IMG/VR virus record: IMGVR_UViG_3300030380_004523
Coordinates: 1 to 36,530 of that record
Reading direction: 5' to 3' (one strand)
Length of the DNA stretch: 36,530 bases
Source: a virus
The translations under genes were made by a program, and so were the position numbers. This document shows positions 12,390-33,863 of the stretch, piece after piece (within the stretch, counting starts at the first letter, position 1; every line of letters starts with the position of its first letter). The notes under the pieces are model-generated. The model worked only from the letters and a program-made list of their open reading frames with translations. It was not told where the DNA came from and ran no database searches.

Positions 12390-12776
12390 TCAAGGATTGT
12401 TGAAGCCTGCATAGATGACAAAGCTGTCAGATCCTGCTGCCTTCTTGTAAGCAATAGACGTTACATTTACGCCACCGATGAGCGCTTGAACGTCGACAGA
12501 GTATGAGCCAAGCACAGGTATGACTCCATCAGTATTGGCCACACCATCACCAGCGCCGGCAGCTGCTCGAGCTTTGAAGAACGAGACAGTCGTAGTAGAG
12601 CCTGAGACAATCTCGACGAAAGCGAACTTAAGGCCAGCGCTGAGCTGTGTACCAGTCTGAGCATCATAGAAATCAGTAGATGAAAGTGAGTGCCAATCTG
12701 TGTCATTTACAGCTGAGGCATTGTAGGCAGAGGCGTATCCACCGGCGTGGATGGGATATTGGACACCGAGTCTCAT
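12390..12776 (-). CDS. Small structural protein, 128 aa
   Basis: The ATG at 12776 overlaps the holin stop as ATGA. The protein is rich in Ala, Gly, Ser and Thr with alternating hydrophobic residues (AFVEIVSGSTTTVSFFKARA, then VIPVLGSYSVDVQALIGGVN) and ends FVIYAGFNNP. It is beta-rich and small and lies between lysis genes and the tail fibre, so a virion decoration or fibre-attachment protein is likely. I do not recognise a family. No signal peptide or membrane helix is present. Confidence 0.55.
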   Translation of the reverse strand: MRLGVQYPIHAGGYASAYNASAVNDTDWHSLSSTDFYDAQTGTQLSAGLKFAFVEIVSGSTTTVSFFKARAAAGAGDGVANTDGVIPVLGSYSVDVQALIGGVNVTSIAYKKAAGSDSFVIYAGFNNP

Positions 12777-13718: not shown

Positions 13719-13719
13719 A

Positions 13720-16700
13720 TCAGCTATACTCCTGAGCATCCACCGTTGTATTTATGACATCTGATGAGCTTGCTAAATATGCGTCAGCCTGGTGGGTGGC
13801 TGATGCATTGGCATAAGTGGTGCTCTCTAGTGTCCCATTGGCGCTAGCAATAGAGTGAGCGCCGGTGAATGTTATCACGTTACCCGCTATTGACTGAATA
13901 GTGAGATTCGTGATGGCGCTGTCATGGTCGCCTCTTGGCAGATAATCAACCACATCACCAGCCTTGAAGAAGCTCACGTCATCCACAGCTAATGAGCTGA
14001 AGTCATCCTCTGCTACTGTGACAGTGTCTGCTGTAAATGCAGTGACTCTGGCTGTTACATTCCAAGCCACAGGACTTAGACCTGTTACTAAGATCTCGAG
14101 TTCACACCCTTCACTCATCAACTCTTGACGTATTGACCTGACCATCCCGACGCCATCAGTCACGCCATAGGCGTCACCATACCCTTTTAGATGTGGTGAG
14201 CTTACGCTGACATAAGATCCAACATCGAGATAAATGCTCTGACCTGTGGCTATAGATCCACGCCATACCCTAAGAGGGTTGCTGAGCAAGTTGAAGATCC
14301 TCGATGATATAGGCAAAAACTCAGCGTAACGGTCACCAGCTCCACGTCCAAACTCATCAGAGGATAAGCCGGGGAGTGTTAGTGTGATCTTTGAACGCTC
14401 ACCACCATAGCGAGTGATGGCCTCCTGATTGCTGAAAAGTACGTTGCTCATGTACTTCTCTTCAATAGCGTCATAGTCATACTGATACTCAATCTGAGTG
14501 ACTATGTCCTCATACACTCCCCAATATGGGGGTTCATCTGCTAACCAGTCGCCGGCTGATATAGACAGATCAGTGTTAGCACTTCGATCATTACCGATAG
14601 ATACGAGAGTAATCTTACTTACACCGGTGCTAGGATCTCGCCTCATAACTATAGCAGCGCTGAGTAATTTGAGTATGGACTCGACAAGCTCTCTAAGGTC
14701 ACCCTCATCACCAGATATAAATGAGTCAACAGTGATGAGGCTAGTGCTATCAACAGCTAAGAAGCTTTGCTCATCGATGTGGCTATCATCAATGTTTAAG
14801 CCTAGGGTGAACACGTCATAAGTACCATTGAGCCCTTCACCGCCTCCACTCTCGAGCAGCTTAAGCAGTGCTACACCAGGTCTATCTGAGTTTATCCTTG
14901 ACGCTCTAAATATAATAACGCGCTCATGATTAGGCCAGTTTCCAAAAGAGACATTTTCAGCAAGGCTTTGAGATGGGTCTAGGTGAATGAAGACACCAAC
15001 ATCTACACCGCTAAATGTAGCCGTAGTCTCATGAGTAGCTACAAAGACTTGATCTCTTTGCTCATTAGACTTTCGATCTGTGAATCTCACCACGATGTCA
15101 AATGAGCTTGAGCCTGCTGTGCTCGGTAGACCTATAGAGTTCTCAACTAGGAATCGATCTTCATAGAGCTGATAATAAGCAGAGGCTACACCCTGCAAAG
15201 GAAACTGAGCTGAGAAGGTTGGAGGCTGTACTTGTAGCCTTCTGAAGACTCCGTCAAAAGTGTTCCTTATATCTTGTACAAAGTCTTCATCTCTTGACGA
15301 TAGATCAATTGGATACCAACACCTAGACCTATCATCGAGCGCCATGAGAGCACTATTAGCAGTTCGCCAATATCGAGCGTTCTGCCAATTTCCTAAACCA
15401 CGCCTCTGCATATCTAAGATAAATTTTAGTTTACTCGACCATAGAAAAATCTCTGTCTCGACATTGGATCTAGTGGTCTTTCTTACTATTGCTTGAGCTT
15501 GTCCATTTAATGCCCAACTAGCTAGACCACCAGAGAGGCCAGCAGATGAGCTAGGGCCATCACTGTTTAAAGTGTCATTGATTACATCAGGCCACTTCTT
15601 TAACTCATCAGACCCTAGTTGATGCTGTTTTAACTCTGCTAATCTCTCAACAGTCAAATTAGTAATATCTTCAAGCTCTGCCTGTGTAAAGCTCTCAGAG
15701 AGTGATGCTAGTGTACAAGTATAAATGGTCTGACCATCCCCATTAACACCTGCTGCTATTGCAGTGGGGAAAGCATACTTATCTTCAATTGACATTCTAG
15801 GCTTGAGGCGTGGATAACGTGGATGAGGCTGTCCATTGAAGTCAGTGTCTGCTGAGCCTTTTGGTAGACTGAGATCAAAGTCAGCCTCAAGCGCAATATT
15901 TGAATTTTTGATCAGGCTGATTGTACCTGCTGTTATTGTGCTTGTAGAGTCGACTTCATATCCCCATAGGGAGCTTTGTCTGATCCCATACTCGAGCATG
16001 TTGGAATCAGTACCATAATAATGATAGCCATCTAATAGTGAGCTTTGCCCAACGCCCTTATCACCTAGCTGAGAATCAACCAACGCCGTTAGAGGTATGA
16101 GGCTGATAGAGATTGCGTCTTGCCTCTCGATCACAGGTGAGCTCTCGATGAATCCATTCACCACTTCTACCCATGAGGATAGTGATCCACTTGGATGCTG
16201 ATGAGCTGCATAGAGCTTAGCGCGTCTGCCTCTGAATGTAGTGATCTCAGTGGTGATCTCAGGGACGCTTGAACCTTCTAACGTTATGCTGTGAGTCTGC
16301 CTGGGTGTGTTGCCTACTGCGCGACCTGCTAAGACATTGAGCTGTGTTGTGGTCGCGCTTATCGCTCTAACAGTCTCTGATCCAACATGTAACAGTCGAG
16401 GATAAGAGAGTGAGGTGAGATCTCTATCAACTTGGATCACTGAGGCTGATCTAGTTAGTGATGCAGTGAGTTGAGCTTTAGTAGAGGCTGACCTCTGACC
16501 ACAACGACCAAAGACTATACCTGCATCACCTAGACCACCTCTCTGTCTATCTACTGATAGAGTGACAGTAGTGCTCGAGTATTGACCTACACCACCAGCG
16601 ACATCAAGAGATGAACTATAGCCACCTACCTCTATGATGCTCTCAACATCTGTATAATTTATACCACTGATGATCTGAGTATTTAAGCCGGCTGTACCAC

Positions 16701-16779
16701 CTCCAGAGTGATAGCGATACTGAAGACCACCCACCTCTAAAGCAAAGACGCGACGCCCATGATCACTATTAACACTCAT
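13720..16779 (-). CDS. Large tail tip / central tail hub protein, 1019 aa
   Basis: It is the longest gene of the tail-tip block. The sequence is beta-rich throughout. The C-terminal part (about 905-1019) contains the pattern of short strands DTVTVAEDDFSSLAVDDVSF, FKAGDVVDYLPRGD and GNVITFTGAHSIA that is common at the ends of phage tail hub proteins. The position after the tape measure and three intermediate tail genes, and before the endolysin, fits a hub that closes the tail tube and carries the fibres. No peptidase motif is seen. The start overlaps the preceding stop as ATGA. The exact homology class is uncertain. Confidence 0.65.
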   Translation of the reverse strand: MSVNSDHGRRVFALEVGGLQYRYHSGGGTAGLNTQIISGINYTDVESIIEVGGYSSSLDVAGGVGQYSSTTVTLSVDRQRGGLGDAGIVFGRCGQRSASTKAQLTASLTRSASVIQVDRDLTSLSYPRLLHVGSETVRAISATTTQLNVLAGRAVGNTPRQTHSITLEGSSVPEITTEITTFRGRRAKLYAAHQHPSGSLSSWVEVVNGFIESSPVIERQDAISISLIPLTALVDSQLGDKGVGQSSLLDGYHYYGTDSNMLEYGIRQSSLWGYEVDSTSTITAGTISLIKNSNIALEADFDLSLPKGSADTDFNGQPHPRYPRLKPRMSIEDKYAFPTAIAAGVNGDGQTIYTCTLASLSESFTQAELEDITNLTVERLAELKQHQLGSDELKKWPDVINDTLNSDGPSSSAGLSGGLASWALNGQAQAIVRKTTRSNVETEIFLWSSKLKFILDMQRRGLGNWQNARYWRTANSALMALDDRSRCWYPIDLSSRDEDFVQDIRNTFDGVFRRLQVQPPTFSAQFPLQGVASAYYQLYEDRFLVENSIGLPSTAGSSSFDIVVRFTDRKSNEQRDQVFVATHETTATFSGVDVGVFIHLDPSQSLAENVSFGNWPNHERVIIFRASRINSDRPGVALLKLLESGGGEGLNGTYDVFTLGLNIDDSHIDEQSFLAVDSTSLITVDSFISGDEGDLRELVESILKLLSAAIVMRRDPSTGVSKITLVSIGNDRSANTDLSISAGDWLADEPPYWGVYEDIVTQIEYQYDYDAIEEKYMSNVLFSNQEAITRYGGERSKITLTLPGLSSDEFGRGAGDRYAEFLPISSRIFNLLSNPLRVWRGSIATGQSIYLDVGSYVSVSSPHLKGYGDAYGVTDGVGMVRSIRQELMSEGCELEILVTGLSPVAWNVTARVTAFTADTVTVAEDDFSSLAVDDVSFFKAGDVVDYLPRGDHDSAITNLTIQSIAGNVITFTGAHSIASANGTLESTTYANASATHQADAYLASSSDVINTTVDAQEYS

Positions 16780-17411
16780 GGTGTCACCTCAACCTCAAAT
16801 ACGTCATAGATGTGAAATCCAGATATGGCCACATCATTAACGGTCACACTTATATTCAGTAGCTGACCTCTATTAGCAGATGGTACATATAGAGGCCTAA
16901 TCAATACGGTGGGTGATACGTTAGTGGGTGCATCAATAAGCTGAGTACCACTAAAGATGAACTCATCAGGAGCGTAGCTGTAACCTTGGGTTGATAGATC
17001 TGTAAACTTAATCCCTTGATCAATGATACTGCCTGTAAATGAGTTGCCTGCTGTGCTTCTTAATTGACACTGTATATCAGGATTCGATGACCCTGTTTTA
17101 CCTGCATAGCTAATTAAGATGGCTAGTCTCTCTGAGAGAGCTGTGCTCTGATATAAGAAGTTATAGTCATATCCCTTATAGGCGCTACGTATGACCCCAT
17201 AATTATGAAGTCTTGACCCTGTACCAAAGACACCAGACCACCCACCATAAGTGCTATGACTGACTTGGTAGTGAGCTTCACCGAGAAACTTACAATGGCT
17301 AAGTTGAGCTAGACCATTAGCTAACTGTGTAGCAGTCCCACCCATGACCACTTCACCATTATAGCAACCATCAACACTAGGTAGCTTAATAAAACCGGTG
17401 GGTATTAGCAT
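16776..17411 (-). CDS. Tail tip-associated protein, 211 aa
   Basis: Beta-rich protein starting MLIPTGFIKLPSVDGCYNGE, with many Gly, Tyr and Ser residues and a C-terminal strand IYDVFEVEVTP. It lies between two other tail-tip genes with overlaps or one-base gaps, so it is almost certainly part of the same assembly. No enzyme motif, signal or membrane helix is present. It could be a small distal tail or baseplate component. I do not recognise a specific family. Confidence 0.55.
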   Translation of the reverse strand: MLIPTGFIKLPSVDGCYNGEVVMGGTATQLANGLAQLSHCKFLGEAHYQVSHSTYGGWSGVFGTGSRLHNYGVIRSAYKGYDYNFLYQSTALSERLAILISYAGKTGSSNPDIQCQLRSTAGNSFTGSIIDQGIKFTDLSTQGYSYAPDEFIFSGTQLIDAPTNVSPTVLIRPLYVPSANRGQLLNISVTVNDVAISGFHIYDVFEVEVTP

Positions 17412-17412
17412 G

Positions 17413-18507
17413 TCACACTCCTATGATTGTTAAACCGGCGACGTATGGCAGATAGGTTCCACTCCCACCATCCATGTCTACACCAAAGATAAACAGCTGA
17501 GTTAGATTGTGAGCGCTCTCATCAGGTCCTACTCTGTATACACTAAGACCAAAGTCATCAGACCTTGGCAGTTCATCAAGTCTAAAGTTGAGTGTGTGAG
17601 TTGTCCATCCTGTGGAGTTCATCGTGATGCGCTCTCCTAACAGGTCAATAGAGATGGGTGTGTAACTACCTCCATTTTGAATGACGTGAACATAGGCTGT
17701 GAGGTCTAAAGTTGAATCATCTCTCATACCGGGGAAGATGGCAGACTCACTAAACATCGAGTTAAGATCACCTGTGGCAATAGCTCGAGGAGCTGCACCG
17801 GCTGAGCTTATACCTGATCCTGAGCTAACACCCTCTACACCTGACCAGTTAAACAAAACTCTAGGCCTTCTCCTCAGAGTATTGATGTTATTGATGAGCT
17901 CTACGCCGGTCCTCGATGATAGAGGCAGATCAGCGCCTAATCTAGTTTGACCCTGTGGGATATACTCACTCAGCTGATGGAAGTGTTGACCCGTTGCAAG
18001 TGGTGATGTAAGCGGTGACCAGTTAGCCATCACTCCAAGCACCTCAACCTCACCACCGGTGGGCGCTTTGACTTCCATCTTAAGAAGACCTGCAAATTCA
18101 TTCTGAAAGGCTGTGATATTGATAGCGCCAGAGACAAAAGCGCTCGAGTATCGAGATGTGTCTGTGATGGTTAATGTGGTGGTGTATGTGTTTGATCCCA
18201 GAGTCAGACTAAACTTAGCCTGAGCACCGGCTGTGGCACAGAAGGCGCTGAGGATAATATTAAGAGTCTGATGAGATGAACTTATCTGTGGGATGTACCA
18301 TTGACACATCTCTACAAAACTAGTGCCATCTTGTCTGAAGGTCGAGTCATCCCATGTCTGACTTAATACGTTACTAGTCCCACCGGTGGCGAAGGCGTAG
18401 TTTGATGAGTCTGCTAGTCTAGCTATCTCAGTGGTCCTGATGGTCTGACCTGCGACTACTCGAGATGCATCAGTCAGCAACGGTGGTGATGTAAATGAGT
18501 TGCTCAT
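17413..18507 (-). CDS. Tail tip-associated protein, 364 aa
   Basis: Begins MSNSFTSPPLLTDASRVVAG. Its beta-sandwich-like first half includes SLTLGSNTYTTTLTITDTSR. A central segment has QHFHQLSEYIPQGQTRLGAD, and a second beta-rich half ends LPYVAGLTIIGV. The segment around residues 85-170 looks like a carbohydrate-binding-type sandwich, which is an impression only. The gene overlaps the preceding one as ATGA and is one base from the next, consistent with a single tail-tip operon. Its role is probably structural. Confidence 0.55.
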   Translation of the reverse strand: MSNSFTSPPLLTDASRVVAGQTIRTTEIARLADSSNYAFATGGTSNVLSQTWDDSTFRQDGTSFVEMCQWYIPQISSSHQTLNIILSAFCATAGAQAKFSLTLGSNTYTTTLTITDTSRYSSAFVSGAINITAFQNEFAGLLKMEVKAPTGGEVEVLGVMANWSPLTSPLATGQHFHQLSEYIPQGQTRLGADLPLSSRTGVELINNINTLRRRPRVLFNWSGVEGVSSGSGISSAGAAPRAIATGDLNSMFSESAIFPGMRDDSTLDLTAYVHVIQNGGSYTPISIDLLGERITMNSTGWTTHTLNFRLDELPRSDDFGLSVYRVGPDESAHNLTQLFIFGVDMDGGSGTYLPYVAGLTIIGV

Positions 18508-19712
18508 AGGTGTTCAATCTCCATCGATACTGGTACACGTCTTTTGAGTCTGCCAGGGTATGCAAGATTAAAGTCTGCTGTTACTAGTGAACCTCTTATT
18601 CTTCCATACTCTCCATTATCCTCAGAGGTGTAGAGGCTGTCATAAGCAGACTGAGTACCAACTATTTGATCAGTCCTGAGAGATCTCCTCGAGTCACCCC
18701 ATCCTTGATAGAAGTTGACGCGCTCACCAGATGAGCAGTGTGTAAGCCATCGATGGATGAAGTGTTGATAGTCGTCTACTAGGTCTAGCAAAGCATCAAG
18801 ATCAAAGCTCAGCACACTAGTCACGTATGTACCAATATAGTTACTCGAGTAACCTCCGCTGATCTTACGCCTACTTTCACTTAGATTCTGAACTCGTAGA
18901 TGATGACCTTGGTATGGTCGAGATGGGATAAGCACACCTGAGGCTTTATGAGTCGAGGTCAAGAGACTGAAGGTTGTGTCATAAGTGGTGGGTGTCTCAT
19001 TACCTGTGAACCCTAGCATGTCTCTTATAGTTGTGTTTGACCACGTGATGTGACCTAGCGCTGTGAGATATGCACACTCGACATAGCCACTATCATTCAC
19101 ATACCAATTGATCAGGTCACTAGTCTGAGCATCTTGGTCTAATTTATCTAATGAGTCTAAACCAAAGACATCAGCATCATTGATGGTGGCTCGGTCTCGA
19201 GTATAAACTGAGAGGTCTTGAATCTTAATGCTCTGCTGAGGGAACACAAAAGAGCCAGCGCCACCCACTTGATCAAGTCGATATGATACACCTGATAGGC
19301 TAGTTGCTCCCCTTGTCCAATCATTCTGACAAGTGACTGAGTATGTAGAGCCGTTAAGAGTCGCTGATACTGTGCCACTGCCTAGGCCCAAAGGATCTGA
19401 TGACCCGGTTGAGGTCACTGTAAAATTAGTGTTTGAACTAAACACAAACTTATCAGAGCTATTGAGCGATAAAGCCCATGATGCTCCAAAGAGTTTAACA
19501 GTGGTGAGTCTGCCTGTGCCGGTCATGTCAGCGTCTAATGATCGACCATTTAAGAAGAAGACAATATCCTCATAGACACCTTGACCAGTGGTGAACGTAG
19601 GCAGTGATACAGCTGAGCCACCACCTCTGGTAAATAGCTGAGTCGCGCTCAAGTCACGTAGGTCATACGCTGTGAGGAGCCCAAACTGTGGAGCAGGGTT
19701 ATTTAGTGGCAT
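18504..19712 (-). CDS. Distal tail / minor tail protein, 402 aa
   Basis: This is the first gene after the tape measure, with a TAATG overlap and GGGAG in front. In siphoviruses this place is usually held by the distal tail protein that forms the ring between tube and tip. The sequence is beta-rich with many Asp, Ser and Thr residues and a late region HRWLTHCSSGERVNFYQGWG. The family cannot be fixed by eye, so the name comes from synteny. Confidence 0.55.
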   Translation of the reverse strand: MPLNNPAPQFGLLTAYDLRDLSATQLFTRGGGSAVSLPTFTTGQGVYEDIVFFLNGRSLDADMTGTGRLTTVKLFGASWALSLNSSDKFVFSSNTNFTVTSTGSSDPLGLGSGTVSATLNGSTYSVTCQNDWTRGATSLSGVSYRLDQVGGAGSFVFPQQSIKIQDLSVYTRDRATINDADVFGLDSLDKLDQDAQTSDLINWYVNDSGYVECAYLTALGHITWSNTTIRDMLGFTGNETPTTYDTTFSLLTSTHKASGVLIPSRPYQGHHLRVQNLSESRRKISGGYSSNYIGTYVTSVLSFDLDALLDLVDDYQHFIHRWLTHCSSGERVNFYQGWGDSRRSLRTDQIVGTQSAYDSLYTSEDNGEYGRIRGSLVTADFNLAYPGRLKRRVPVSMEIEHL

Positions 19713-21688
19713 TATGATCTCCCTAGGTTAAGGCGTCTAGCGCCTCTGTTACGCTGATTCATTACACCTACGAGTCTATCAACCATAGCTCTCTCTGCAG
19801 CCTGTTTAGTGTCATAGATCACAGCGCCACCAAAGTTAATATTGAAGACGGTGCTTGTCTCCTGAGCGCTCTCTCTCTCTGGCGTTGGTGCTATCTGTGG
19901 AGCTCCACTTGGTGATGCGCTACCTCCACCACCACCGCCTCCACCGGCTAGCGCACTACCTGCCACACCAGCTGCGACCGCTCCAGCTGCAAAGCCAGTA
20001 GCTGCCTTTAAGTTATTTGCTGCACCTACGAGGTCACCCATAGCCAAAGCTGAAAACATCTTGGCAGTAGAGATCAAAGACTCAACAGCAGCTTGCTTGC
20101 CTAGGCCAAAGATGATCTGAGCTATTGACTCTTTGAATGATTCACCCATAGCTAAAGCACCAAAACTAGCTTCAGCGAAAGCACCACCAAAAGCATCAGC
20201 GATCTCACCAGCTTGATCAATGTAGGCTTGTTCTCTCTGTGTCCTCTCATCGATCTGCTTTAAGATCTCAGCTTGTCGCTTGTCTCTCTCTGCTTGTCGC
20301 TTTGCCTCTTCAGATTTTAAGAGTTCAGTCTTTGCCATCTCAAAGCGCATCTCAGCCATCAAGAGCTGATTCTGATTTTCTCTAGCTCGATCACGCTCAA
20401 GCTCATATTGTGCATCTAATACTTGAAGCTTTGTAAATCCTAGTTGCTTCATTTTTTGAATCTCTAGCGCTCGAATAGCAAAGAGCTCATTTTGAGTCTG
20501 ACGCTCGAGCATTAAGCGCTGAGCCTCTGCTGCTTTCTCAGCTGCCAGTCTTGCACTTCTTATGGATTTAGCTCTATCAGACCTAGCCTTCTCAGCCTTT
20601 TCTCTCTCTGCTTTAGCTTTGGCCTCTAAGTCAGAGAATCTTTTATCAATGACATCAGCATTTAAAGTATCAGCGTCAATAGCCTTAATAGATTGCTGTA
20701 CCTCATCATGCAACTCTATGAGTAGCGTCTTATCTCGTTTGTTGAGCTCGGCTAACTTTTGCGACTCTTTAAGCCTGCTTTGAAGTCTAAGATGCTGGCC
20801 TTCAAGTTCTAACTTGTATTTCTCGCGCTCAAGATCAGAGACTGCAGCCACCTCAGCCTCTCTAAGCTCCAAACTTTTGAGTAAGACTAGATTCTCTGTA
20901 ACACGTCTAGCTATCTCAACCGGTGCTTGTGACTCTAAATCAAGAAACTTTGATTCGGTTCTAAATAACCTTTCTTGAGTCTCAGCTTGAGCGATGTTTT
21001 GCTCTCTTATAAGCTGCTTAGTTATTAGTCGTTGTCTATCTAAGTCATCAAGTAGCTCTGTTTGTGTCTTATAATACTGTAGCCCAGTAAGAAGGTTATC
21101 GAAAGACTTCTTCCATCCCTCCTCTCTTCGCCTTTCGTATTTTTCTGCTCGCTCTGCTTGAATCTGCTGTTCTTTAGCTATTGATCTACCTACGGCTTTA
21201 GTCCGTTTTTCAAGATTTTCCTTAGATAGCTGTGCCTCCAAATTGAGCCTAGTAAAATCTCTAAGTTCTCTATTCGTAGGCTTAACACCCTTTTCAGCTA
21301 ACATCTCAAGCTTAGATTGCAAGTCTGCTGAACTTGTGGCCAGTGCATCTTCAGCTTCACCCGCTGCATGTGCAGCTCCTGAGATGTTTAAAAAAGTCTC
21401 ATATAAAGCAAAGCCCACAGCGACAAGACCACCAATTGCAGGTATCAAAGACACTATAGATGCTTTGCCTCCTTTGCTCATTGAATCAAGGGTATGAGTG
21501 AGATCTTTAAAAGCTCCTCCAGCTTCCTCTATATTTCCAACTAAAGAGCCAAGGCCTTCACCCATGTGTGTGTTTGATTTATCAAATCTATCAGCCATTG
21601 ATGCTGCAGTCTCACCAATGCCCTTAAGCCCTTTCTTAGCCTCCTCAGCTCCATCAAGTCTAACCTCGATTGCAACGGTTCTACCCAT
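19712..21688 (-). CDS. Tail tape measure protein, 658 aa
   Basis: The N-terminus (VAIEVRLDGAEEAKKGLKGI) matches the start of many tape measure proteins. A hydrophobic stretch at about 78-105 (SIVSLIPAIGGLVAVGFALY) is followed by a very long coiled coil (about 120-490) rich in Glu, Lys, Arg, Ala and Leu. A Gly/Ala-rich hydrophobic region comes next (about 520-590) with a GGGGGGG run. A rule of about 1.5 angstrom per residue predicts a tail near 100 nm, a siphovirus value. The gene follows the frameshifted chaperone pair, as in lambda. Confidence 0.9.
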   Translation of the reverse strand: MGRTVAIEVRLDGAEEAKKGLKGIGETAASMADRFDKSNTHMGEGLGSLVGNIEEAGGAFKDLTHTLDSMSKGGKASIVSLIPAIGGLVAVGFALYETFLNISGAAHAAGEAEDALATSSADLQSKLEMLAEKGVKPTNRELRDFTRLNLEAQLSKENLEKRTKAVGRSIAKEQQIQAERAEKYERRREEGWKKSFDNLLTGLQYYKTQTELLDDLDRQRLITKQLIREQNIAQAETQERLFRTESKFLDLESQAPVEIARRVTENLVLLKSLELREAEVAAVSDLEREKYKLELEGQHLRLQSRLKESQKLAELNKRDKTLLIELHDEVQQSIKAIDADTLNADVIDKRFSDLEAKAKAEREKAEKARSDRAKSIRSARLAAEKAAEAQRLMLERQTQNELFAIRALEIQKMKQLGFTKLQVLDAQYELERDRARENQNQLLMAEMRFEMAKTELLKSEEAKRQAERDKRQAEILKQIDERTQREQAYIDQAGEIADAFGGAFAEASFGALAMGESFKESIAQIIFGLGKQAAVESLISTAKMFSALAMGDLVGAANNLKAATGFAAGAVAAGVAGSALAGGGGGGGGSASPSGAPQIAPTPERESAQETSTVFNINFGGAVIYDTKQAAERAMVDRLVGVMNQRNRGARRLNLGRS

Positions 21689-22103
21689 GTTTACTCTCCT
21701 CTATTGCTCTCTGCTGTGCTCGGCTCTGAGCTGACTCAGTATGATAGTGTAAAGTGTCCACAGCCTCAACTAGAGCACATGATGGCGTTGGGTGTGATAC
21801 TGAGATGGGGTATAGACCCGACCTGTGACGATGATAAGCAGAGATGATGCTTGCTAGTCTATTAGCGCCGGCCACAGGACAAGATCTGATTTTAAGATCA
21901 CTGTACTCAGCGCCACTATCTGGTGCTACTCGATAACCAGGGACATAGAGCCCATGCTCATCACGTTGCACCATAGGCAGATTCTCTTTAAATGCACCAC
22001 CACAGCTACCACGTTTCTCACGTAGTCCCTTGCTTGACCTGCATTGATCACATGACCATGAGCGTCCTCTGTTATAGCTTAGCCACACAGAAGACGCGCT
22101 CAT
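21681..22103 (-). CDS. Tail assembly chaperone second frame (lambda T-like), made mainly by -1 frameshift, 140 codons
   Basis: This frame starts in a TAATG overlap with the first chaperone gene and is in the -1 frame at the slippery GGGAAAA. A shift would fuse the 169-residue protein to Ile and then this segment, giving about 310 residues. It contains a Cys cluster (CDQCRSSKGLREKRGSCGG) and another Cys further on (IRSCPVAG) that may bind zinc. The end overlaps the tape measure start by eight bases. In lambda the gpG-gpGT pair chaperones the tape measure; position and signal agree with that role. Separate initiation at its ATG cannot be excluded. Confidence 0.7.
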   Translation of the reverse strand: MSASSVWLSYNRGRSWSCDQCRSSKGLREKRGSCGGAFKENLPMVQRDEHGLYVPGYRVAPDSGAEYSDLKIRSCPVAGANRLASIISAYHRHRSGLYPISVSHPTPSCALVEAVDTLHYHTESAQSRAQQRAIEESKHG

Positions 22104-22112
22104 TATTTTCCC
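22060..22112 (-). promoter_or_regulatory. Programmed -1 frameshift signal: slippery GGGAAAA plus hairpin
   Basis: On the minus strand the heptamer G GGA AAA (22112-22106) is in the required phase, immediately before the TAA stop. After a four-base spacer GAGCG (22101-22097) pairs with CGCTC (22064-22060). After a two-base bulge TCTTCTGT (22094-22087) pairs with ACAGAGGA (22072-22065) with one U-G pair, leaving a 14-base loop. Lambda uses GGGAAAG at the same place in gene G. Confidence 0.85.
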
Positions 22113-22612
22113 TGTTCACCTAACAGACTGATCCTCTGTATGTGGAGGACAAGTTCACTTATGGTCTGTACTCGATGACTCTCTGGTCTAATCATCTGGA
22201 GCTGTTCAAGCGTTGCATCTACATCATCAATACTAACGAGTGAAGCTCTGATCATCTCATTATAGACATTGTTCAAATACTGTTGATATTGGCTCATAGC
22301 TTCACGCTCATCATCACTTAGCTTGTGATGCCACTGAGCTTTCTCACGTAGATCATCAGGAGCCTCAGACCAGAGCAGACGGCCTAACTCAGATCGAGTC
22401 ATAGCACCGGCTCTAATCTCAGCCTGTTCACGCTCAGCAGGTGAGAGCGCTTTGAGTGTAAACGTTGTAGCACCATCACCTAATTTTAAATGAAGCATGT
22501 CACCAGTGTCTAAATACTTAGAGCGCTCTTCATCAGTACACTCGACCGATGGATCACAAGTGACAACGACTTCAAGAGTCTGCTCTGATGACGTGAGAAA
22601 AGATAAGCCCAT
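22103..22612 (-). CDS. Tail assembly chaperone first frame (lambda G-like), 169 aa
   Basis: A small helical protein directly after the tail tube gene and before the tape measure. It contains FTLKALSPAEREQAEIRAGA, a phrase typical of tail chaperones and related phage proteins that contact the tail, then a helical C-terminal part ending SLLGEQGK. Its last codons form the slippery sequence of the frameshift site, so both a short and an extended product are expected. Role: keeps the tape measure soluble and recruits tail tube subunits during assembly. Confidence 0.75.
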   Translation of the reverse strand: MGLSFLTSSEQTLEVVVTCDPSVECTDEERSKYLDTGDMLHLKLGDGATTFTLKALSPAEREQAEIRAGAMTRSELGRLLWSEAPDDLREKAQWHHKLSDDEREAMSQYQQYLNNVYNEMIRASLVSIDDVDATLEQLQMIRPESHRVQTISELVLHIQRISLLGEQGK

Positions 22613-22613
22613 C

Positions 22614-23900
22614 TTAGATGCCTAGTCCTAGTCTGAATGGTGAGTTAGTGGCGTTACTTCCACTCACATCACCGCTGAATCGAGATTGATTATAGGTGAG
22701 CTGTTGTCTGACAATGTCATTACCAGAGACATCATAAGCGCTAGGATCAACAGCAAGCTGAGCAGCTGGCAACATGATTGCACAGCCAAGGCCATCACCT
22801 ATCGGACCAGTACCAATGACGACCTGTCTCAAAGTACGATTGAAGAAGTCGTCATTGATCAAAGTTAGTGGGGTAGAGAGAGTCATGGTGAGCTCCACAA
22901 CTACATCACTGATCTCCATGTCACTCATTGCTAGAATGCTGTTACTATGTCCCATAGGTGTGAGCGTGTTGGTGACTGTTAAACTGAAGTCTTCACAATC
23001 AGCAGTCGTCCGAGCAAGCATATCACCAGTGGTCACAGCAGTGAGTGAGGTTGGTGCTGTGCTCGATAATACCGCGTATGCACCTCTAAAGAATGGAGGT
23101 GAGCCACTGTTATATGTGGGCTCAATAGGTCCACTAGCGTTGCCATGATCATCCTCGATGTGAGCTGATTGATAAGTGAACTCACCCATTAATCGACCAT
23201 TGTCTAAGGTGATGCTTAGAGACTCGAGCACACAACCAAAACAGAAAGTTCTAAAGCCAACGCCATCAACACGAAAGCTCAAGCTGTTCTCTCTAGTGCC
23301 TGTGGCGTTTTGTCCTGGTACATACCAAGTTTGAAGATGACGAATCACCTTTGAACCGGTGAACCCTGCACTAAATGCAGGTGAGAAGTTAACATCACCG
23401 CTATTAGTATCATCAGTGATTGCTGAGTATTCAGCTCTACCACTCAACTCAGCGCCAATGATTGTCCCTACATCATCGTTGTTAGGTCCTGATGATGGAG
23501 TGTATGAGTTAACATTAACTGCTGTAACATTATCAGTTGATACGCTTGGAATACGTGTTTTAAAACCAGCGCCTAAAAGTAAGCCTAGGTAGTTAGCTGA
23601 GTAATCTGCTGAAGCTGTCCCAATGGTCGTGAGGTCTACGCGACACACGACTTGGCCTGTCCTATGACGAACTCTTGAGCCTCCGCTGAAGACTGTGTCT
23701 GGCTCAGGAGGGATTAAGAAGTTACCATCACGCGCATCATTGCGCTCACTGAAGACCGGCTCACCAAAGATGATAATAGGGTCACGCTCACAAGGGATAG
23801 ACGTATAAGATCCACTCTTATCAGGTAAGCCTGTTGATGGTGTTAGAGAACCAAAAGAGCCCTCTGATAATACGCCTAATGTTCTGTGTGTTACTGTCAT
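22614..23900 (-). CDS. Major tail (tube) protein, 428 aa
   Basis: Begins MTVTHRTLGVLSEGSFGSLT and is rich in beta strands, Gly, Ser and Thr. It contains the segment SLSFRVDGVGFRTFCFGCVL then ESLSITLDNGRLMGEFTYQS, a strand pattern typical of tail tube proteins that have an outward insertion. At 428 residues it is longer than the common 150-350. The position between tail terminator and chaperones, and the TAATG overlap with the gene before it, support the role of the tube subunit. No sheath gene exists nearby, in agreement with a non-contractile tail. Confidence 0.75.
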   Translation of the reverse strand: MTVTHRTLGVLSEGSFGSLTPSTGLPDKSGSYTSIPCERDPIIIFGEPVFSERNDARDGNFLIPPEPDTVFSGGSRVRHRTGQVVCRVDLTTIGTASADYSANYLGLLLGAGFKTRIPSVSTDNVTAVNVNSYTPSSGPNNDDVGTIIGAELSGRAEYSAITDDTNSGDVNFSPAFSAGFTGSKVIRHLQTWYVPGQNATGTRENSLSFRVDGVGFRTFCFGCVLESLSITLDNGRLMGEFTYQSAHIEDDHGNASGPIEPTYNSGSPPFFRGAYAVLSSTAPTSLTAVTTGDMLARTTADCEDFSLTVTNTLTPMGHSNSILAMSDMEISDVVVELTMTLSTPLTLINDDFFNRTLRQVVIGTGPIGDGLGCAIMLPAAQLAVDPSAYDVSGNDIVRQQLTYNQSRFSGDVSGSNATNSPFRLGLGI

Positions 23901-24358
23901 TATGCCTCCAAGTAGAGAAGAGTAAATGGTACTGACAACATAAAACTCTGCTCATCAGTATCGATGGGACCATAGATGGGTGGATCCGGTATCACTGATA
24001 ATATACCAGTCGTAGCCAGAGAATAGTTGGGTCCTTTTAGTTTTAGCAGGATATACTCGGCATCCTCAGCAGCTAGGCGCTGAAGGTAGAGAGTATCAGA
24101 CTGAGGCACATCATAGCGCACGTCACATGATACCTGTACACGTCTACGACCTGACAAACCTGCAGCGCCATCATCCTCTGGAAAGGCCTCAAGAGATAGT
24201 TGGAAGTATCTGGTACTATTAAAGCGCTGATCAAGTGGGCTGACAGCGCCGTTGGCTCTATTGTGACACACAAAACCATGATGAATGTCTGACTTTGGTG
24301 TGATGCTCATGATCTGATCTTCGAGAAAAGTCAGCGCTGAGTAGATACCTTGACTCAT
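23900..24358 (-). CDS. Tail terminator-like protein, 152 aa
   Basis: Short alpha/beta protein with an N-terminal helix (IYSALTFLEDQIMSI), a strand region YFQLSLEAFPEDDG and RRRVQVSCDVRYDV, and a final strand SFMLSVPFTLLYLEA. Tail terminators and connector stoppers have this size and fold and sit just before the tail tube gene. The start overlaps the preceding stop as ATGA and the end overlaps the tube gene start as TAATG. The name is by synteny and strand pattern. Confidence 0.6.
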   Translation of the reverse strand: MSQGIYSALTFLEDQIMSITPKSDIHHGFVCHNRANGAVSPLDQRFNSTRYFQLSLEAFPEDDGAAGLSGRRRVQVSCDVRYDVPQSDTLYLQRLAAEDAEYILLKLKGPNYSLATTGILSVIPDPPIYGPIDTDEQSFMLSVPFTLLYLEA

Positions 24359-24855
24359 GGCATTAACTTTTTTCTTATCTCAATATCTATTGATCTAACC
24401 AACACATCAACATCAGACAGAGATAATCCTAAAAATTCCCGTTTTTCATTAACAGCATATCCATACATACCATGAGGATTTAAGCCTATCAAAAAGTAAG
24501 CATGTGTTGCCTCTTGAACTTCAAGACTATTCATCATGTTGCCACTGAGCACCAGGTCAACTTCAGCGCTATCTGATGAACTACCACGTTTTCTAGATTC
24601 ATGTTTATATTGTTTATATCCACCGCTATAAAAAACACCGCCTTTTGTCTTCACTCCACCTTTTGGCTTAAGCCTAGCTCCTTTATTAGCAACATAGAGA
24701 GGCTTTGTAGAGTAAGGCTTAAATGGCATATTGTGAGCATCAAGACCCTTGGCTGTTCTCATTTTAATAGCTGCCAGTGTATTCATAGCTAAGCGCATTG
24801 TGTCGCGCCTAGTCCATAAAGATCTAGGAAGATTTAAATTTAATAATGTAGCCAT
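24355..24855 (-). CDS. Neck / tail completion protein (gpG or HK97 gp10-like), 166 aa
   Basis: Contains the stretch GLDAHNMPFKPYSTKPLYVA, a Lys/Gly-rich loop and VDLVLSGNMMNSLEVQEA, followed by a small beta-helix end. The order TakGlDa-x-PF-x-PYS ... LSGxMxxSL is characteristic of the virion morphogenesis/tail completion family that lies between head connector and tail terminator. It joins the tail to the filled head. The ATG is preceded by a short gap after the neck gene. Confidence 0.65.
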   Translation of the reverse strand: MATLLNLNLPRSLWTRRDTMRLAMNTLAAIKMRTAKGLDAHNMPFKPYSTKPLYVANKGARLKPKGGVKTKGGVFYSGGYKQYKHESRKRGSSSDSAEVDLVLSGNMMNSLEVQEATHAYFLIGLNPHGMYGYAVNEKREFLGLSLSDVDVLVRSIDIEIRKKLMP

Positions 24856-24857
24856 GA

Positions 24858-25805
24858 TTAGTGCCTCATCCCTCTAGCAATTTTAAAGAATGAATCATTC
24901 TCACTTTTGGTGTAGTTCTTATATGACGCCCTAAAGTCTGTGGAGCTCCCTCCCTCTCTTCTTAGATTCTCCTCACCTGCATCTACAACGCCATCGCCAT
25001 CTAGGTCGAGAGTGACAGACCTTAAAGCTAGGTCTAGCATCTCATGATATCGAGCTCTCATCTTCTCAGCGCCGTCAAACTGCATGTTCATCTCATAGAT
25101 GTGAGCAGCTGCACAGTAGACATGGGCTCGCTTAAATGACTGCTGATTGAAGACCTCATCTTCTGTTATGCCATCAGGAACTACATGATCTCTGATTGCT
25201 AGTATCATCTCATCTAGTGAAGCTCTGATCTGAGGGGCAAAGTCACTCTGACGACGTGGAACCATATCAGCTAGATTAGCCATCGAGCCCACTAGCTCAT
25301 CATGATCTAAACCAGTGTCAAAGGGTCGAGGGGTGACTTTAAGCAGTCCTGTCTCAACTCTTTTAGCGCCTACGATATCATCATAAGCTATAGTGTATGG
25401 ATAGACTCCTGATGTACCTGTGTTAGCAGATCCTATATCAACATAGCTCATAGCAAAGTTTAGAGTTGCTGATGTGCTGAGATCAATCTCTCTTGGTAGA
25501 GGCTCGGCTAATATAGCAGTCCCTGTTACGAGTCTAACTACTTTCACAGCATAGTATGTATCAGCTGAGGTCTTAAGATATGCTCTGACTTCATCACGCT
25601 CGAGCGCTGATCCTATCGCTCCACTAGTTGTGAGTGTCCTTCGATCATTGGCTACTGCTGTGATAGTTACATCAGCTCTGCTCTGTGCAAAGATGCCATT
25701 GAAGTCACCACCGGTAAACTTGACTGTAAGCGTTGGATTGTTTGTATATGGTCTTGGTGGGTCCCAGACAAAATGACAATTCTGATTAGTTATTGTCTTC
25801 TTCAT
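24858..25805 (-). CDS. Head-tail adaptor protein with a canonical EF-hand loop, 315 aa
   Basis: The N-terminal half (1-160) is beta-rich. The C-terminal half is helical (DEMILAIRDHVVP, RAHVYCAAAHIYEMNMQFDG, AEKMRARYHEMLDLALRS), the usual makeup of head-tail adaptors. Residues 267-278 (DLDGDGVVDAGE) form a perfect 12-position calcium-binding loop, with Asp at 1, 3, 5 and 9 and Glu at 12. The ATG overlaps the preceding stop (ATGA). Calcium could stabilise the neck. The adaptor role is from position between the minor head and completion genes. Confidence 0.6.
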   Translation of the reverse strand: MKKTITNQNCHFVWDPPRPYTNNPTLTVKFTGGDFNGIFAQSRADVTITAVANDRRTLTTSGAIGSALERDEVRAYLKTSADTYYAVKVVRLVTGTAILAEPLPREIDLSTSATLNFAMSYVDIGSANTGTSGVYPYTIAYDDIVGAKRVETGLLKVTPRPFDTGLDHDELVGSMANLADMVPRRQSDFAPQIRASLDEMILAIRDHVVPDGITEDEVFNQQSFKRAHVYCAAAHIYEMNMQFDGAEKMRARYHEMLDLALRSVTLDLDGDGVVDAGEENLRREGGSSTDFRASYKNYTKSENDSFFKIARGMRH

Positions 25806-26701
25806 TTCTTACCACCTTTATTCGCGTTGCTGATGTCTTTACTAGTTGCTAGATCGAGATCAGCAGCTTGCACAAATGACTCTGTGACCGGTGACCATGA
25901 GTGTCTGCAATTATAGCCTCCACAGCTAGTCTTCACAGCTAGGCCTTGACCGTTGCGTAGCTTGCTCATCTGCTTGTCATCGACCACTTTATTTATCAGC
26001 GCCTTGCAAAATGGTCTGGTGAGACCATCACGCGGGCCGGTGTAGAGATAGTTAGTAAGCCCAACCTCATCAGCGATTCTAGCTGTGACTGTTCGCCCAT
26101 ACTGACTTATACGTGTCTTAACCTCAGTGAGCTGTCTACCCTCTGAGCTTTCTAGTCTCTGATTAAGATCACTCTTAACGATAGAGAGAGGGACTTCAGT
26201 TGATAGAGCTAACAGTGCATCACGTGTAGCTCGCTTGAAGTCTGGGATGATCACGTCCTCAAATACTGCGCTAGCGCTTTGAGCTTGGATCAGGTCAAGT
26301 TGAGGAAGCATCTGAGGATTGTATTCTAGTCCTAGAACCTCAAATGATTTCTCAACACTTGCTCTGATTTTATCAGACGATTCAATAAAGTCATCGATGG
26401 CTAGACCTAAGCCACCTCTTAGAATCAAGTCTAAGAGTTGTTCATCATCGAAGCTTAATAAAAGCTCAGGCTCAGTCGATACTGACGCCATCTCGATAAT
26501 GCTAACTAGGTCTTTTCGAGCTTTCGCGAGAGATGTTTTAAATGCTCGCTCAGCTTGAACCTCTGCCTTTAATTGATCTCGTCTTGATCGGACTAGTTGA
26601 GCCACAGGACCACGCTGACCCTTAACCTGACGGGTAAGATCTGCAATAGCCTCTTCATCTGCATCAATCTCAGAGAGTTGATGGTGGCTCAACATATCCA
26701 T
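25802..26701 (-). CDS. Minor head protein, Mu gpF-like head morphogenesis domain, 299 aa
   Basis: Residues about 1-190 are helical and charged. The C-terminus has the family signature: NYLYTGPRDGLTRPFCKAL, then KLRNGQGL, then CGGYNCRHSWSPV. The Y-x-GP-D-x-TRPFC ... GGYNCRHxW pattern is seen in Mu gpF/SPP1 gp7-type proteins, minor head proteins present in a few copies near the portal. Cys and His residues there may bind metal. It lies directly after the capsid gene, unlike SPP1, where it precedes it. Confidence 0.8.
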   Translation of the reverse strand: MDMLSHHQLSEIDADEEAIADLTRQVKGQRGPVAQLVRSRRDQLKAEVQAERAFKTSLAKARKDLVSIIEMASVSTEPELLLSFDDEQLLDLILRGGLGLAIDDFIESSDKIRASVEKSFEVLGLEYNPQMLPQLDLIQAQSASAVFEDVIIPDFKRATRDALLALSTEVPLSIVKSDLNQRLESSEGRQLTEVKTRISQYGRTVTARIADEVGLTNYLYTGPRDGLTRPFCKALINKVVDDKQMSKLRNGQGLAVKTSCGGYNCRHSWSPVTESFVQAADLDLATSKDISNANKGGKK

Positions 26702-31498: not shown

Positions 31499-31990
31499 TT
31501 AGTCACCTCTGTCCACAGAATCAATTTCAGGCAACCACTCCTCAACCGTAGGGGGTAGTATTACCTTGTCAGGATCTTTTGTCTTAATCGGTCTTTCACC
31601 TGAAAAGATGGACAGCTTCTCTATGACTGCGGTCTGTAGTTCTGATATCTGCTCTCTGCTAAGTTGCATCTGAATCTGTGCATCTCTCAACCGGCCTATC
31701 AATGCTTCTCTGTCAGCGTTGGCTGATGCGAGCTTGTCCTTGAGGTCTTCAACTTCAGACGGATCTCGACCTGAGGCTATAGCCATCATCGATGAGATCG
31801 AGCCAGTGATCATCCCGAGTATACCCACTAAGACATCTCTGTTCTTTTCGACTATCTCTACATAAGTTAAGAATAGGATGAGCCCAACGACCAAGAGCAT
31901 AAAAAATACACTAAACCACCAACCACGTTTAGTTTTCTCTTGGGCGCTAAGCTCTTTCTCAGTCTTACGCTGTTTAATATCCTGGGCCAT
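31499..31990 (-). CDS. Two-TM membrane protein with cytoplasmic coiled coil, 163 aa
   Basis: A charged N-terminus (1-23) is followed by TM1 at about 24-47 (WWFSVFFMLLVVGLILFLTY) and TM2 at about 52-72 (DVLVGILGMITGSISSMMAI). A coiled coil runs over about 75-128 (VEDLKDKLASANADREALIG onward) and an acidic Pro-rich end follows. No cyclic-nucleotide-binding domain is visible. The start overlaps the cyclase gene by 17 bases, with GAGGAT in front, so the two are probably made together. It could be a second holin-like protein, an exclusion protein or an output partner of the cyclase. The last is speculation. Confidence 0.6.
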   Translation of the reverse strand: MAQDIKQRKTEKELSAQEKTKRGWWFSVFFMLLVVGLILFLTYVEIVEKNRDVLVGILGMITGSISSMMAIASGRDPSEVEDLKDKLASANADREALIGRLRDAQIQMQLSREQISELQTAVIEKLSIFSGERPIKTKDPDKVILPPTVEEWLPEIDSVDRGD

Positions 31991-32777
31991 AGAACATCCT
32001 CACTATAAAGTTGCCGGTGACCTGTAACCACTTCACATATCCCTGAGCGCTGAGCCAAGGCCACAACTCACAGATGATGTAGATGAGATTGATTAGAGCC
32101 CATCGAGGTAATACCCACATGATCCACTCTAAGACTTTACGGTCACGCGCTCTACTCTTGACCTTCTTAGGACCACCTAGACGTTTTGCTTTATCAGTAC
32201 CCTTAGGAGGTTGAAGCGCTCTAATATCACTGCCTACTGCATAGAGAGTCTGTGCAGCTCCTACACCTTTGAACTTATAAAGGCCTATCATCACATATCG
32301 AGTACCCTTTGGTGTGAATGCATTGGTAGCGCCCTTGACAGACTCTAGCGCTTCAGATGTCAGGAGCACTTGACCAGCCCCACATAAACTCATCGTCCTA
32401 GCTGCTATGTTCTTACTGATACCTTCAAGCTCAACTCGCTTAGCTCCCACTGCTGTCCACGTATCATCTTGGATAACCTCGATGACTGTACCCCAATGAA
32501 TCCCTATTCGTGTATTGAGGTGAGTCTTAGCAGGGATAGTCTGTTGATAGATCAGTGCAAAGTTAACGGCGTCGATGGGTTTATCAAAGCTGAGCATGAA
32601 GCCATCAGATCTATCTATCTCTCTACCGTCGAACTTATACAGCAAAGACCTTGCAAGCCGGTCATGATACTGAAGCCAGATGGCTGCATCTTTAGCGCCT
32701 ACTCTCTCGACAAAAGCAGTAGAGCCGATGAGGTCAAGTAGTACAATTGCTAGTTGTCTCTCTTTGAGGTCGACCAT
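31974..32777 (-). CDS. Class III adenylate/guanylate cyclase-like protein with hydrophobic C-terminus, 267 aa
   Basis: Residues 9-185 form a class III cyclase domain: metal Asp15 in IVLLDLIGST, second metal Asp58 in GREIDRSDGFMLSF, RIGIHWGTVI at 90-99, and the transition-state pair Asn123 and Arg127 in ISKNIAARTMSLCGAGQVLL. The usual purine-selecting Lys and Asp positions appear as Ile54 and Glu116, so the substrate cannot be predicted. The GREID(K/R)(T/S)DGF and VE(V/L)EG phrases occur in a known bacterial subfamily (from memory). Residues 188-213 are basic and about 216-240 are hydrophobic and Trp-rich, suggesting membrane attachment. GGAGG precedes the ATG. It would make a cyclic nucleotide signal in the infected cell. 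Confidence 0.8.
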   Translation of the reverse strand: MVDLKERQLAIVLLDLIGSTAFVERVGAKDAAIWLQYHDRLARSLLYKFDGREIDRSDGFMLSFDKPIDAVNFALIYQQTIPAKTHLNTRIGIHWGTVIEVIQDDTWTAVGAKRVELEGISKNIAARTMSLCGAGQVLLTSEALESVKGATNAFTPKGTRYVMIGLYKFKGVGAAQTLYAVGSDIRALQPPKGTDKAKRLGGPKKVKSRARDRKVLEWIMWVLPRWALINLIYIICELWPWLSAQGYVKWLQVTGNFIVRMFYGPGY

Positions 32778-33211
32778 CTCACCACCTCCACATTATGCTT
32801 AATAAGATAATCGATGCCAGGCTGATCACCATCGTCTGGTGAGTATACTGCTTTTATACCTGCATGGTGTATTAACTTAGCACAGTTAAGACAAGGTGAA
32901 CGTGTGACAGCTAGATGAGCATTTAGGGTAGATGCTCCAAGTCTTGAAGCGTTGACTATGGCATTAGCTTCAGCATGATGACAGCCAACCTCGACACGCT
33001 GACCACTGATGATGTTGAGGTCAATACGTGAGCAAGCATGATCTGAGTGACATAACTTAGACCCTCCTCGAGGAGGTCCATTATAACCATCTGAGATCAC
33101 AGCCCATGACTCAGGATCATATATGACTGCACCGACTTGACCACGTGGACAAGGTGAGCATGAGGCTAAGAGCTTAGCTTGATCAATTCTCAGCTTGATG
33201 TGTTTTAACAT
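32750..33211 (-). CDS. Deoxycytidylate (dCMP) deaminase family protein, 153 aa
   Basis: Contains the zinc-binding motifs of the cytidine/dCMP deaminase fold: CHHAEANAI (His79, catalytic Glu81) and PCLNCAK (Cys107 and Cys110). The N-terminal ASCSPCPRGQVGAVI and GYNGPPRG match dCMP deaminases of the ComEB type. It converts dCMP to dUMP, the substrate of the thymidylate synthase encoded just upstream. The ATG at 33211 follows AGGTG; a GTG at 33217 is an alternative. It overlaps the thyX end by 29 bases and the cyclase start by 28 bases. Confidence 0.9.
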   Translation of the reverse strand: MLKHIKLRIDQAKLLASCSPCPRGQVGAVIYDPESWAVISDGYNGPPRGGSKLCHSDHACSRIDLNIISGQRVEVGCHHAEANAIVNASRLGASTLNAHLAVTRSPCLNCAKLIHHAGIKAVYSPDDGDQPGIDYLIKHNVEVVRWSTSKRDN

Positions 33212-33863
33212 GATCACCTAGCAGAGCTGAGAGACTAATAGGCCACAGCTTACCCAGCTGAATCATGATGGCCTCTGCTACTTCTCTAGTCTCTGGCTGT
33301 GAGTGTGAGTCTAGTCTGAGCTTCAGGAACCTTGACCAGTTCAAGAGATTACCTGTCATCCAAAAGGTAGTATTCAAGGACTGAGGTAGAACGGCGCGTG
33401 CTTGCTCTCTAGCAACTCCTGACTCGATAAGCTCATTATACATCTCTAAGCTCAACTCCTGATGACGCTCGATGAGCTCTACAAACTCATCAGACCGGTT
33501 GACGATTTCAGAGGTCGAGCATTGTAGATTACTTTTAGCCTGTGCTCTCAACTCATCAGGTAGATGAAAGTCAAGCGCCTCTGATGTATAGCGCCGGCTT
33601 ACCTCATTATATGAGAATGTCCTATGTCTCATGATCTGCCTAGCTACATAGATGGGACAGTCAATGACAAAGGTGGCTGTGTTGTGCTCAAAGGGTGATG
33701 TGTGCTGATGCTTAGCTAGATACTTAATCAACCTGAGATTACGATCATTCATCAATCCATTCTCGTAGTCAGCAAAACTAACACGCGCTGCTAAAGCTGG
33801 TGTGTGATCCTCTCCCATCGATGAGAGCATGTAGGCATAACCTTGACCGCCATAGATATTCAA
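33183..33863 (-). CDS. thyX: Flavin-dependent thymidylate synthase ThyX, 226 aa
   Basis: Carries the ThyX signature RHRx7S as RHRTFSYNEVSRRYT (Arg79, His80, Arg81, Ser89). The preceding SPFEHNTATFVIDCPIYVAR is also conserved. The enzyme makes dTMP from dUMP using methylene-tetrahydrofolate, NADPH and FAD, normally as a tetramer. The length of 226 fits the family. The start is TTG at 33863, which overlaps the terL stop as TTGA and has a strong GGGGGAAGG in front. With dCMP deaminase it forms a phage route to dTMP that raises the dTTP supply during infection. Confidence 0.95.
   Translation of the reverse strand: MNIYGGQGYAYMLSSMGEDHTPALAARVSFADYENGLMNDRNLRLIKYLAKHQHTSPFEHNTATFVIDCPIYVARQIMRHRTFSYNEVSRRYTSEALDFHLPDELRAQAKSNLQCSTSEIVNRSDEFVELIERHQELSLEMYNELIESGVAREQARAVLPQSLNTTFWMTGNLLNWSRFLKLRLDSHSQPETREVAEAIMIQLGKLWPISLSALLGDHVKTHQAEN

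Follow-up and report, generated by a model that had tools for sequence, protein, structure and literature searches.

A class III nucleotidyl cyclase gene paired with a two-transmembrane protein gene across uncultured phages: a candidate signal-effector module

Introduction

Bacteria fight phages with cyclic-nucleotide signals that act through membrane-breaking effectors, and the phage parts known in this conflict, to our knowledge, bind or destroy the signal. A locus in the IMG/VR virus record IMGVR_UViG_3300030380_004523 raises the question of whether some phages might make such a signal themselves and carry a membrane partner for it. The window, meaning the whole 36,530-base stretch analysed herein, holds a gene for a class III-type nucleotidyl cyclase that overlaps a downstream gene for a small protein with two predicted transmembrane (TM) segments, hereafter the 2TM protein. 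A sequence-only reading of this DNA had proposed that the two genes are coupled and that such a cyclase is unusual in phages. No report of the pair was found in the openly licensed literature searched. The available portions of two papers on jumbo phages mention no nucleotide cyclase (PMC7824862, PMC13282480), and the part available of a third describes pelagiphages carrying an adenylate cyclase inside a curli gene cluster (PMC9599517).

Genomic setting of the pair

The right part of the window, read on the minus strand, carries in order a small terminase, an 84-aa frame, the large terminase, ThyX, dCMP deaminase, the cyclase, the 2TM gene and a Mu-type portal, followed by further genes. All coordinates given below for the two genes and their features refer to this strand. 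From the position of the pair among head genes, late expression together with these genes may be expected. ThyX and/or dCMP deaminase lie within a few kilobases of the pair repeatedly (window 32750-33863; L133, L189, L191, L196, L208, L252, L279, L359, L389 and L397), in neighbourhoods that differ from one another. This recurrence makes a link to pyrimidine metabolism possible; no mechanism for it was found.

The window's terminase has no close cultured kin, its capsid and portal have weak cultured matches, and a search for its host returned none. Frames of 1019, 211, 364, 402, 658, 140, 169, 428, 152, 166, 315 and 299 aa in the structural region (13720-26701) lack a PHROG match at E 0.01, and the lineage is poorly known. 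In addition, a 109-aa protein at 35870-36199 matches the Pfam STPRs repeats (E 2.7e-13), with several such frames in a row in the relatives L040 and L010, and a 654-aa frame at 528-2492, unusual for a small phage, weakly resembles HATPase_c_3, at 23.4 bits where the cut-off is 25.

The cyclase: fold, active site and membrane helix

The cyclase is encoded by a 267-aa frame with an ATG start (31974..32777). By sequence it passes the Pfam Guanylate_cyc model barely, at 22.4 bits against a cut-off of 21.9. An AlphaFold model built from 20 sequences (pLDDT 85.7, pTM 0.74) has as its nearest solved fold, among the best 50 PDB matches, the cyclase domain of Rv1900c (1ybt_B; Z 24.3, rmsd 1.9, 171 aligned residues, 27% identity), and the active site is intact in this comparison. 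Ma1120 is the second leading match, and these two mycobacterial class III cyclases, the former also named LipJ, lead by structure and by sequence alike. Judged by its modelled fold, the frame is a class III nucleotidyl cyclase, with a catalytic domain of approximately residues 5-185 (32223..32765, by arithmetic) delimited by the range aligned to solved cyclases and by conservation. It differs from Rv1900c and Ma1120 in the loop of the second metal Asp, about one residue shorter in HMMER alignments, in the lack of a hydrolase domain, and in having a C-terminal membrane helix and a 2TM partner.

The two metal-binding aspartates and the transition-state Asn/Arg pair lie where the sequence-only reading had placed them: D15 in LLDLIGST (32733-32735), D58 in RSDGF (32604-32606), and N123 and R127 in SKNIAAR (32409-32411 and 32397-32399), all coordinates being obtained by arithmetic. 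Conservation was counted over 192 of 200 distinct cyclases (frames longer than 200 aa), leaving gaps out. Asp15 is kept in 190/190, Asp58 in 191/191, Arg127 in 192/192 and Asn123 in 189/192, and the catalytic set expected of a class III cyclase accordingly reads as intact at the level of the alignment.

The residues that would select the base tell a different story, as had been noticed from the sequence. The canonical purine-selecting Lys and Asp are absent, and an EIDRSD loop and E116 stand in their place. The loop ahead of the second metal aspartate reads GREIDRSDGF; its Asp55 is kept in 191/191, and the Arg56 position holds R in 176, A in 9, S in 3, N in 2 and K in 1. Position 116, which we take, from an alignment by eye, to be the site where purine cyclases have Asp, holds E in 178, N in 12 and S in 2. 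Since some true class III cyclases also depart at the purine-selecting residues, the departure concerns what the enzyme makes rather than the family to which it belongs. The protein falls in an unusual subgroup of the class III cyclases, and its product cannot be read off the sequence.

The hydrophobic C-terminus that had been described is also borne out. Hydropathy peaks at residues 218-236 within an AlphaFold helix of residues 210-244, which is preceded by a conserved basic linker beginning at residue 196 (linker and helix, 32046..32192). This helix is likely a membrane anchor. By a simple scan, a hydrophobic segment is present in the cyclases of 34 of the 36 loci whose head and packaging genes are not those of the window, the exceptions being L092 and L210.

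The 2TM protein: topology and family

The partner gene (31499..31990) encodes 163 aa from an ATG start, overlaps the cyclase gene, as had been noted before, with 17 nt shared (31974..31990), and has a Shine-Dalgarno-like GTGAGGA ahead of its start (31997..32003, by eye). Hydropathy gives hydrophobic segments at residues 26-44 and 53-71, placing TM1 at approximately residues 26-46 (31853..31915) and TM2 at approximately residues 53-72 (31775..31834). Conserved Gly, Ser and Thr are abundant in TM2, and some are invariant; these small residues may be read as those of a packing or pore-lining helix. A low-confidence AlphaFold model (pLDDT 70.4, pTM 0.29) has helices at residues 3-47, 51-72 and 77-129, and the last of these (31604..31762), a long cytoplasmic helix by this model and by conservation, is likely a coiled coil. 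The protein is probably a hairpin with both ends inside the cell and a cytoplasmic coiled coil.

No family model accepts the window protein. The best are SLATT_fungal, which it matches at 18.7 bits where the cut-off stands at 26.5, and a PHROG of unknown function, number 9990, at E 0.00079. A known ligand-binding domain, raised as something to look for in the earlier reading, did not appear in Pfam or PHROGs, and no nucleotide-binding domain was recognised there, in the weak AlphaFold model or by Foldseek with that model, which returned two matches (E 2.9 and 6.0). The model, of low confidence as stated, contains no strand or beta-barrel. Among relatives of the protein, SLATT_fungal tops the list in 13/13 and then in 23/25 at E up to 1 (best E 5.5e-5), with other weak models matching too. 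The SLATT domain, described in the available part of its source as a predicted nucleotide-responsive pore former with two TM segments (PMC7159879), shares with the phage protein a pair of TM helices and a helical part after them. The phage proteins differ in staying below the Pfam cut-off in both members scored (18.7 and 17.0 against 26.5 bits). SLATT_5 scored above its cut-off in 1/299 genomes.

Identity with PycTM was considered and set aside. PF18967, part of the Pfam set searched, is not among the 9 families matched at E up to 1, a comparison with 12 PycTM proteins by hhalign gave a probability of 2.9%, and a profile of the 2TM family (A3) matched no frame around 20 PF18967 hits. PycTM proteins furthermore have an additional C-terminal TM segment in most loci examined, a difference from the phage protein. 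TIR likewise gave no match in Pfam.

Linkage of the two genes

Scans with either protein and with the portal fetched 383 virus loci, many of which overlap or share a contig; each scan supplied its best 80 loci, so that more distant single genes may have been missed. Both genes are present in 352 of the 383, on the same strand in 352/352, representing 203 distinct protein pairs. The remainder comprise 9 loci with the cyclase alone, 5 with the 2TM gene alone and 17 with neither, all 17 from the portal scan. For 13 of the 14 single-gene loci, the contig ends on the side where the missing gene would lie, and in the fourteenth (L345) only 409 bases separate the contig start from the portal, too few for the cyclase. 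No uncut locus with one gene only was found among the virus loci fetched. The proposed coupling of the two genes is in this respect well founded. The cyclase comes first in 202 of the 203 distinct pairs, and in 9/203 the genes are more than about 100 nt apart.

The portal scan gave 68 loci among its best 80 with at least 700 bases upstream of the portal. Both genes are present in 61, neither in 6 (L292, L295, L296, L297, L337 and L352), and in one (L306) the contig end truncates the 2TM gene. Presence in 61 and joint absence in 6 of these relatives mark the pair as accessory, although retained by most of the clade. The terminase is in view in four of the six. Of these, L337 has no listed frame in the slot ahead of the portal, and L295 has a 67-aa frame there; ThyX lies upstream in L292 and L297. 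In L296 (2545-3690) and L352 (1758-3056), frames that by eye resemble DNA methylases occupy the slot between terminase and portal, which has the look of a cargo hotspot.

Both genes are under purifying selection, and their pairing is not a matter of chance. Over 113 members of the window clade, correlations of distances are 0.81 for cyclase and 2TM protein, 0.69 for cyclase and portal, and 0.55 for 2TM protein and portal. Between the window and L004, dN/dS is 0.106 for the cyclase and 0.012 for the 2TM protein. Among 66 pairs drawn from 12 members, dS was usable in 4 for the cyclase and 9 for the 2TM protein, with medians of 0.106 and 0.054 and maxima of 0.138 and 0.135, respectively. In L012 and L068 the cyclase frame is broken beside an intact 2TM frame, where sequencing error is possible.

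The late position of the pair in the window clade, the conserved small-residue-rich TM2 and the strong purifying selection would all suit a lysis timer, in which late accumulation of the cyclic nucleotide sets off the 2TM protein, acting in the manner of a holin or antiholin. Such a role is very unlikely in our judgement. The window has an endolysin (13062-13739) with a two-TM neighbour of its own (12773-13099), six close relatives do without the pair, and the match to a holin/anti-holin PHROG reaches only E 0.14. A phage holin gene would be expected beside the endolysin, and the 2TM gene lies about 18 kb from it. A lysis cassette as the main reading was set back for the presence of the endolysin elsewhere with its own two-TM gene and for the six relatives lacking the pair. 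The protein at 12773-13099 is holin-like, with two TM segments and a long PQ-repeat tail.

Distribution across phages and absence elsewhere

Of the 203 loci compared by neighbourhood, 167 have head or packaging genes in common with the window and form its clade, and 36 do not. These 36 fall into 9 neighbourhood groups when three or four shared neighbours are required, and into 6 when two are required. The pair ranges from phages of about 35 kb up to contigs of 376 kb, the large ones including L172 (239,550 bases), L186 (296,642), L247 (312,136) and L245 (375,691). A phrog_2 terminase is present in 8 of 20 large pair-bearing records, and the window terminase has no match in the same 20 by a search run without a positive control. 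The pair recurs in unrelated phages, and it is not rare among uncultured ones. The rarity supposed at the outset holds for cultured-phage records, where a single 26% match to the cyclase was found in 50,697, and fails for uncultured phages. That match lies at 5962-8637 of L110 (MT838110.1), at the head of an 892-aa frame; the record is an unverified, unannotated fecal contig and may be bacterial DNA.

The order and spacing of the two genes are not fixed. Other genes are inserted between them in L126, L156, L157, L158, L172, L174 and L182, and their order is reversed in L208. In L198, the 2TM protein is 62-77% identical to the other 24, and its cyclase is 23-35% identical to theirs. An exchange of partners was considered for L198, whose cyclase falls beside bacterial ones (84/99), and was not retained: the tree is drawn from its midpoint and carries a long-branch warning, and a single branch separates phage from bacterial rows. 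The L198 cyclase may simply be the deepest phage cyclase.

These observations bear on a further alternative, namely that the genes are functionally unconnected neighbours, unrelated to each other and adjacent through a gene order that the phages conserve. The 167 of 203 loci that belong to one clade with conserved order would agree with it. It is contradicted by the other neighbourhoods, the insertions, the one reversal and the lack of any uncut single-gene locus among those fetched, and we find it scarcely credible.

The 2TM family was sought well beyond the pair. Each of 26 phage records searched whole holds one 2TM match. A pattern scan of 84,980 bacterial and archaeal genomes gave 154 pattern matches and 0 confirmed relatives, and none was found in 72,556 plasmids. 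The window protein has no match in 50,697 phage records, against which the L126 protein gave one match, in a Vibrio phage (29%, E 0.03). In 398 genomes of one phylum, the profile gave one partial match (E 3.9e-5, positions 54-124 of 158) within a 535-aa frame.

Relatives of the cyclase in bacterial and archaeal genome contigs were found at 8 loci (L147-L154), in Rubrivivax and Rhizobacter MAGs. They share the GREIDR[S/T]DGF loop and the PP..DKA.RV motif that follows it. At 34-41% identity they differ in heading large multidomain proteins, fused to a large soluble part (an ATPase and repeats, by eye) and not to a membrane helix, and no 2TM partner was seen in the parts of these loci that were examined. 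Multidomain cyclase proteins with the same loop gave 10 and 4 matches in two MAG genomes searched whole.

To characterise what else accompanies the pair outside the window clade, 74 neighbouring proteins chosen from 135 were compared with Pfam and PHROGs; among the best 25 of 29 and the best 25 of 43 families, none occurs in more than 2 of the 74. In 29 loci (L126:7663-7941 and 28 others, overlapping loci counted), all outside that clade, the pair has nearby a conserved small protein (KSKKF...GWK...GYILGQ) in which two segments are hydrophobic. It stands on either side and strand of the pair and is missing from the window. As a candidate third gene of the module it was rejected, being unrelated to the 2TM protein (hhalign 1.5%), and it is taken as a neighbour.

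Comparison with known cyclase-effector systems

Pycsar, a bacterial anti-phage system of PycC with PycTM or PycTIR, is alike in that a class III-type cyclase gene adjoins one whose product, a small membrane protein, could respond to the nucleotide. It is unlike in that the present pair is phage-borne and its effector is the 2TM protein, not PycTM; by its effector, the pair is not Pycsar. The cyclase is nearest to Rv1900c and Ma1120. It has no PADLOC match at E up to 1, a result compatible with PycC, and PycC is absent from the best 50 structure matches and from the PDB sequence matches, which leaves room for a family unlisted there.

Panoptes (mCpol/OptS with 2TM-beta/OptE) and CBASS Cap15 offer a second likeness, since they too join in two genes a nucleotide synthase and a two-TM protein; in the available parts of the two sources, the two-TM partners of nucleotide synthases in Panoptes and CBASS are membrane-breaking effectors (PMC12657218, PMC12657230). 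The present synthase is, by its fold, a class III cyclase and not mCpol, and the 2TM model, a weak one, has no beta-barrel. A reverse logic of the Panoptes kind can nevertheless be set out: the cyclic nucleotide would hold the 2TM protein inactive, and loss of the signal, through a sponge or nuclease of a rival or the host or through halted synthesis, would let it collapse the membrane. The shared two-gene layout agrees with this, as does the way in which the genes are retained or lost jointly, like a toxin with its antitoxin. Against it stand the lack of a beta-barrel nucleotide-binding domain in the weak 2TM model, the class of the synthase, and the broken cyclases beside intact 2TM frames in L012 and L068, which would be hard to tolerate unless they are sequencing errors. 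We hold this scheme to be distinctly unlikely.

Proposed role of the pair

A signal-effector pair is suggested by several features taken together: the genes are inherited jointly, the enzyme has an intact active site and a membrane helix, and its partner is a two-TM protein. The receptor was approached through the cNMP_binding domain, which is found in 0/26 phage records, the controls matching in 10/14; the receptor would then be the 2TM protein itself, some phage protein that escaped recognition, or a protein of the host. We favour, at about even odds, the reading that the pair is a phage-borne signal-effector module working like Pycsar. For its product, the relation of signal to receptor, the pore, the trigger and the benefit, we infer the following scheme. 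The membrane-anchored class III cyclase would make a 3',5'-cyclic mononucleotide, and the 2TM protein would oligomerise in the inner membrane. Once activated by this nucleotide, or through direct action of the cyclase, the 2TM protein would perturb the membrane. The module would probably serve against rival phages, serve against a step of host defence, or time cell death late in infection.

Several findings weigh against the module reading. The 2TM protein has no recognised nucleotide-binding domain, and its dN/dS of 0.012 between the window and L004 reflects a conservation unusual for a defence effector. The place of the pair among late head genes in the window clade fits a role in the life cycle too, and the broken cyclase frames of L012 and L068 and the six relatives lacking the pair also count against it.

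The lack of a receptor domain in all 26 phage records speaks as well for another arrangement, in which the 2TM protein is both sensor and regulator of the membrane-bound cyclase, whose cyclic nucleotide would change host physiology through a protein of the host. With a membrane helix and basic linker of its own, the cyclase would share the membrane with the 2TM protein, and the long coiled coil of the 2TM protein (from the weak model) is compatible with a regulator. Phages without kinship would, however, all need hosts having a suitable receptor, and at the L198 locus the same type of 2TM protein accompanies a cyclase so divergent that close contact between the two proteins would be more difficult to maintain. 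The varying gene order and spacing argue little either way. On balance, we consider a regulator of this kind unlikely.

Implications

Returning to the signal-effector module, a broader proposal can be made, which we advance tentatively and at somewhat less than even confidence. Phages of several unrelated lineages may own a complete cyclic-mononucleotide pathway, composed of a cyclase and a new family of nucleotide-gated two-TM effectors that was not found in the bacterial genomes searched. Such a pathway could act as a membrane-death switch that shuts out rivals, punishes removal of the signal, or times the end of infection. If this is true, phages make a cyclic-nucleotide signal of this kind themselves. 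The pair would then provide a candidate new effector family, and it raises the question of whether such pathways have been traded between phages and bacteria.
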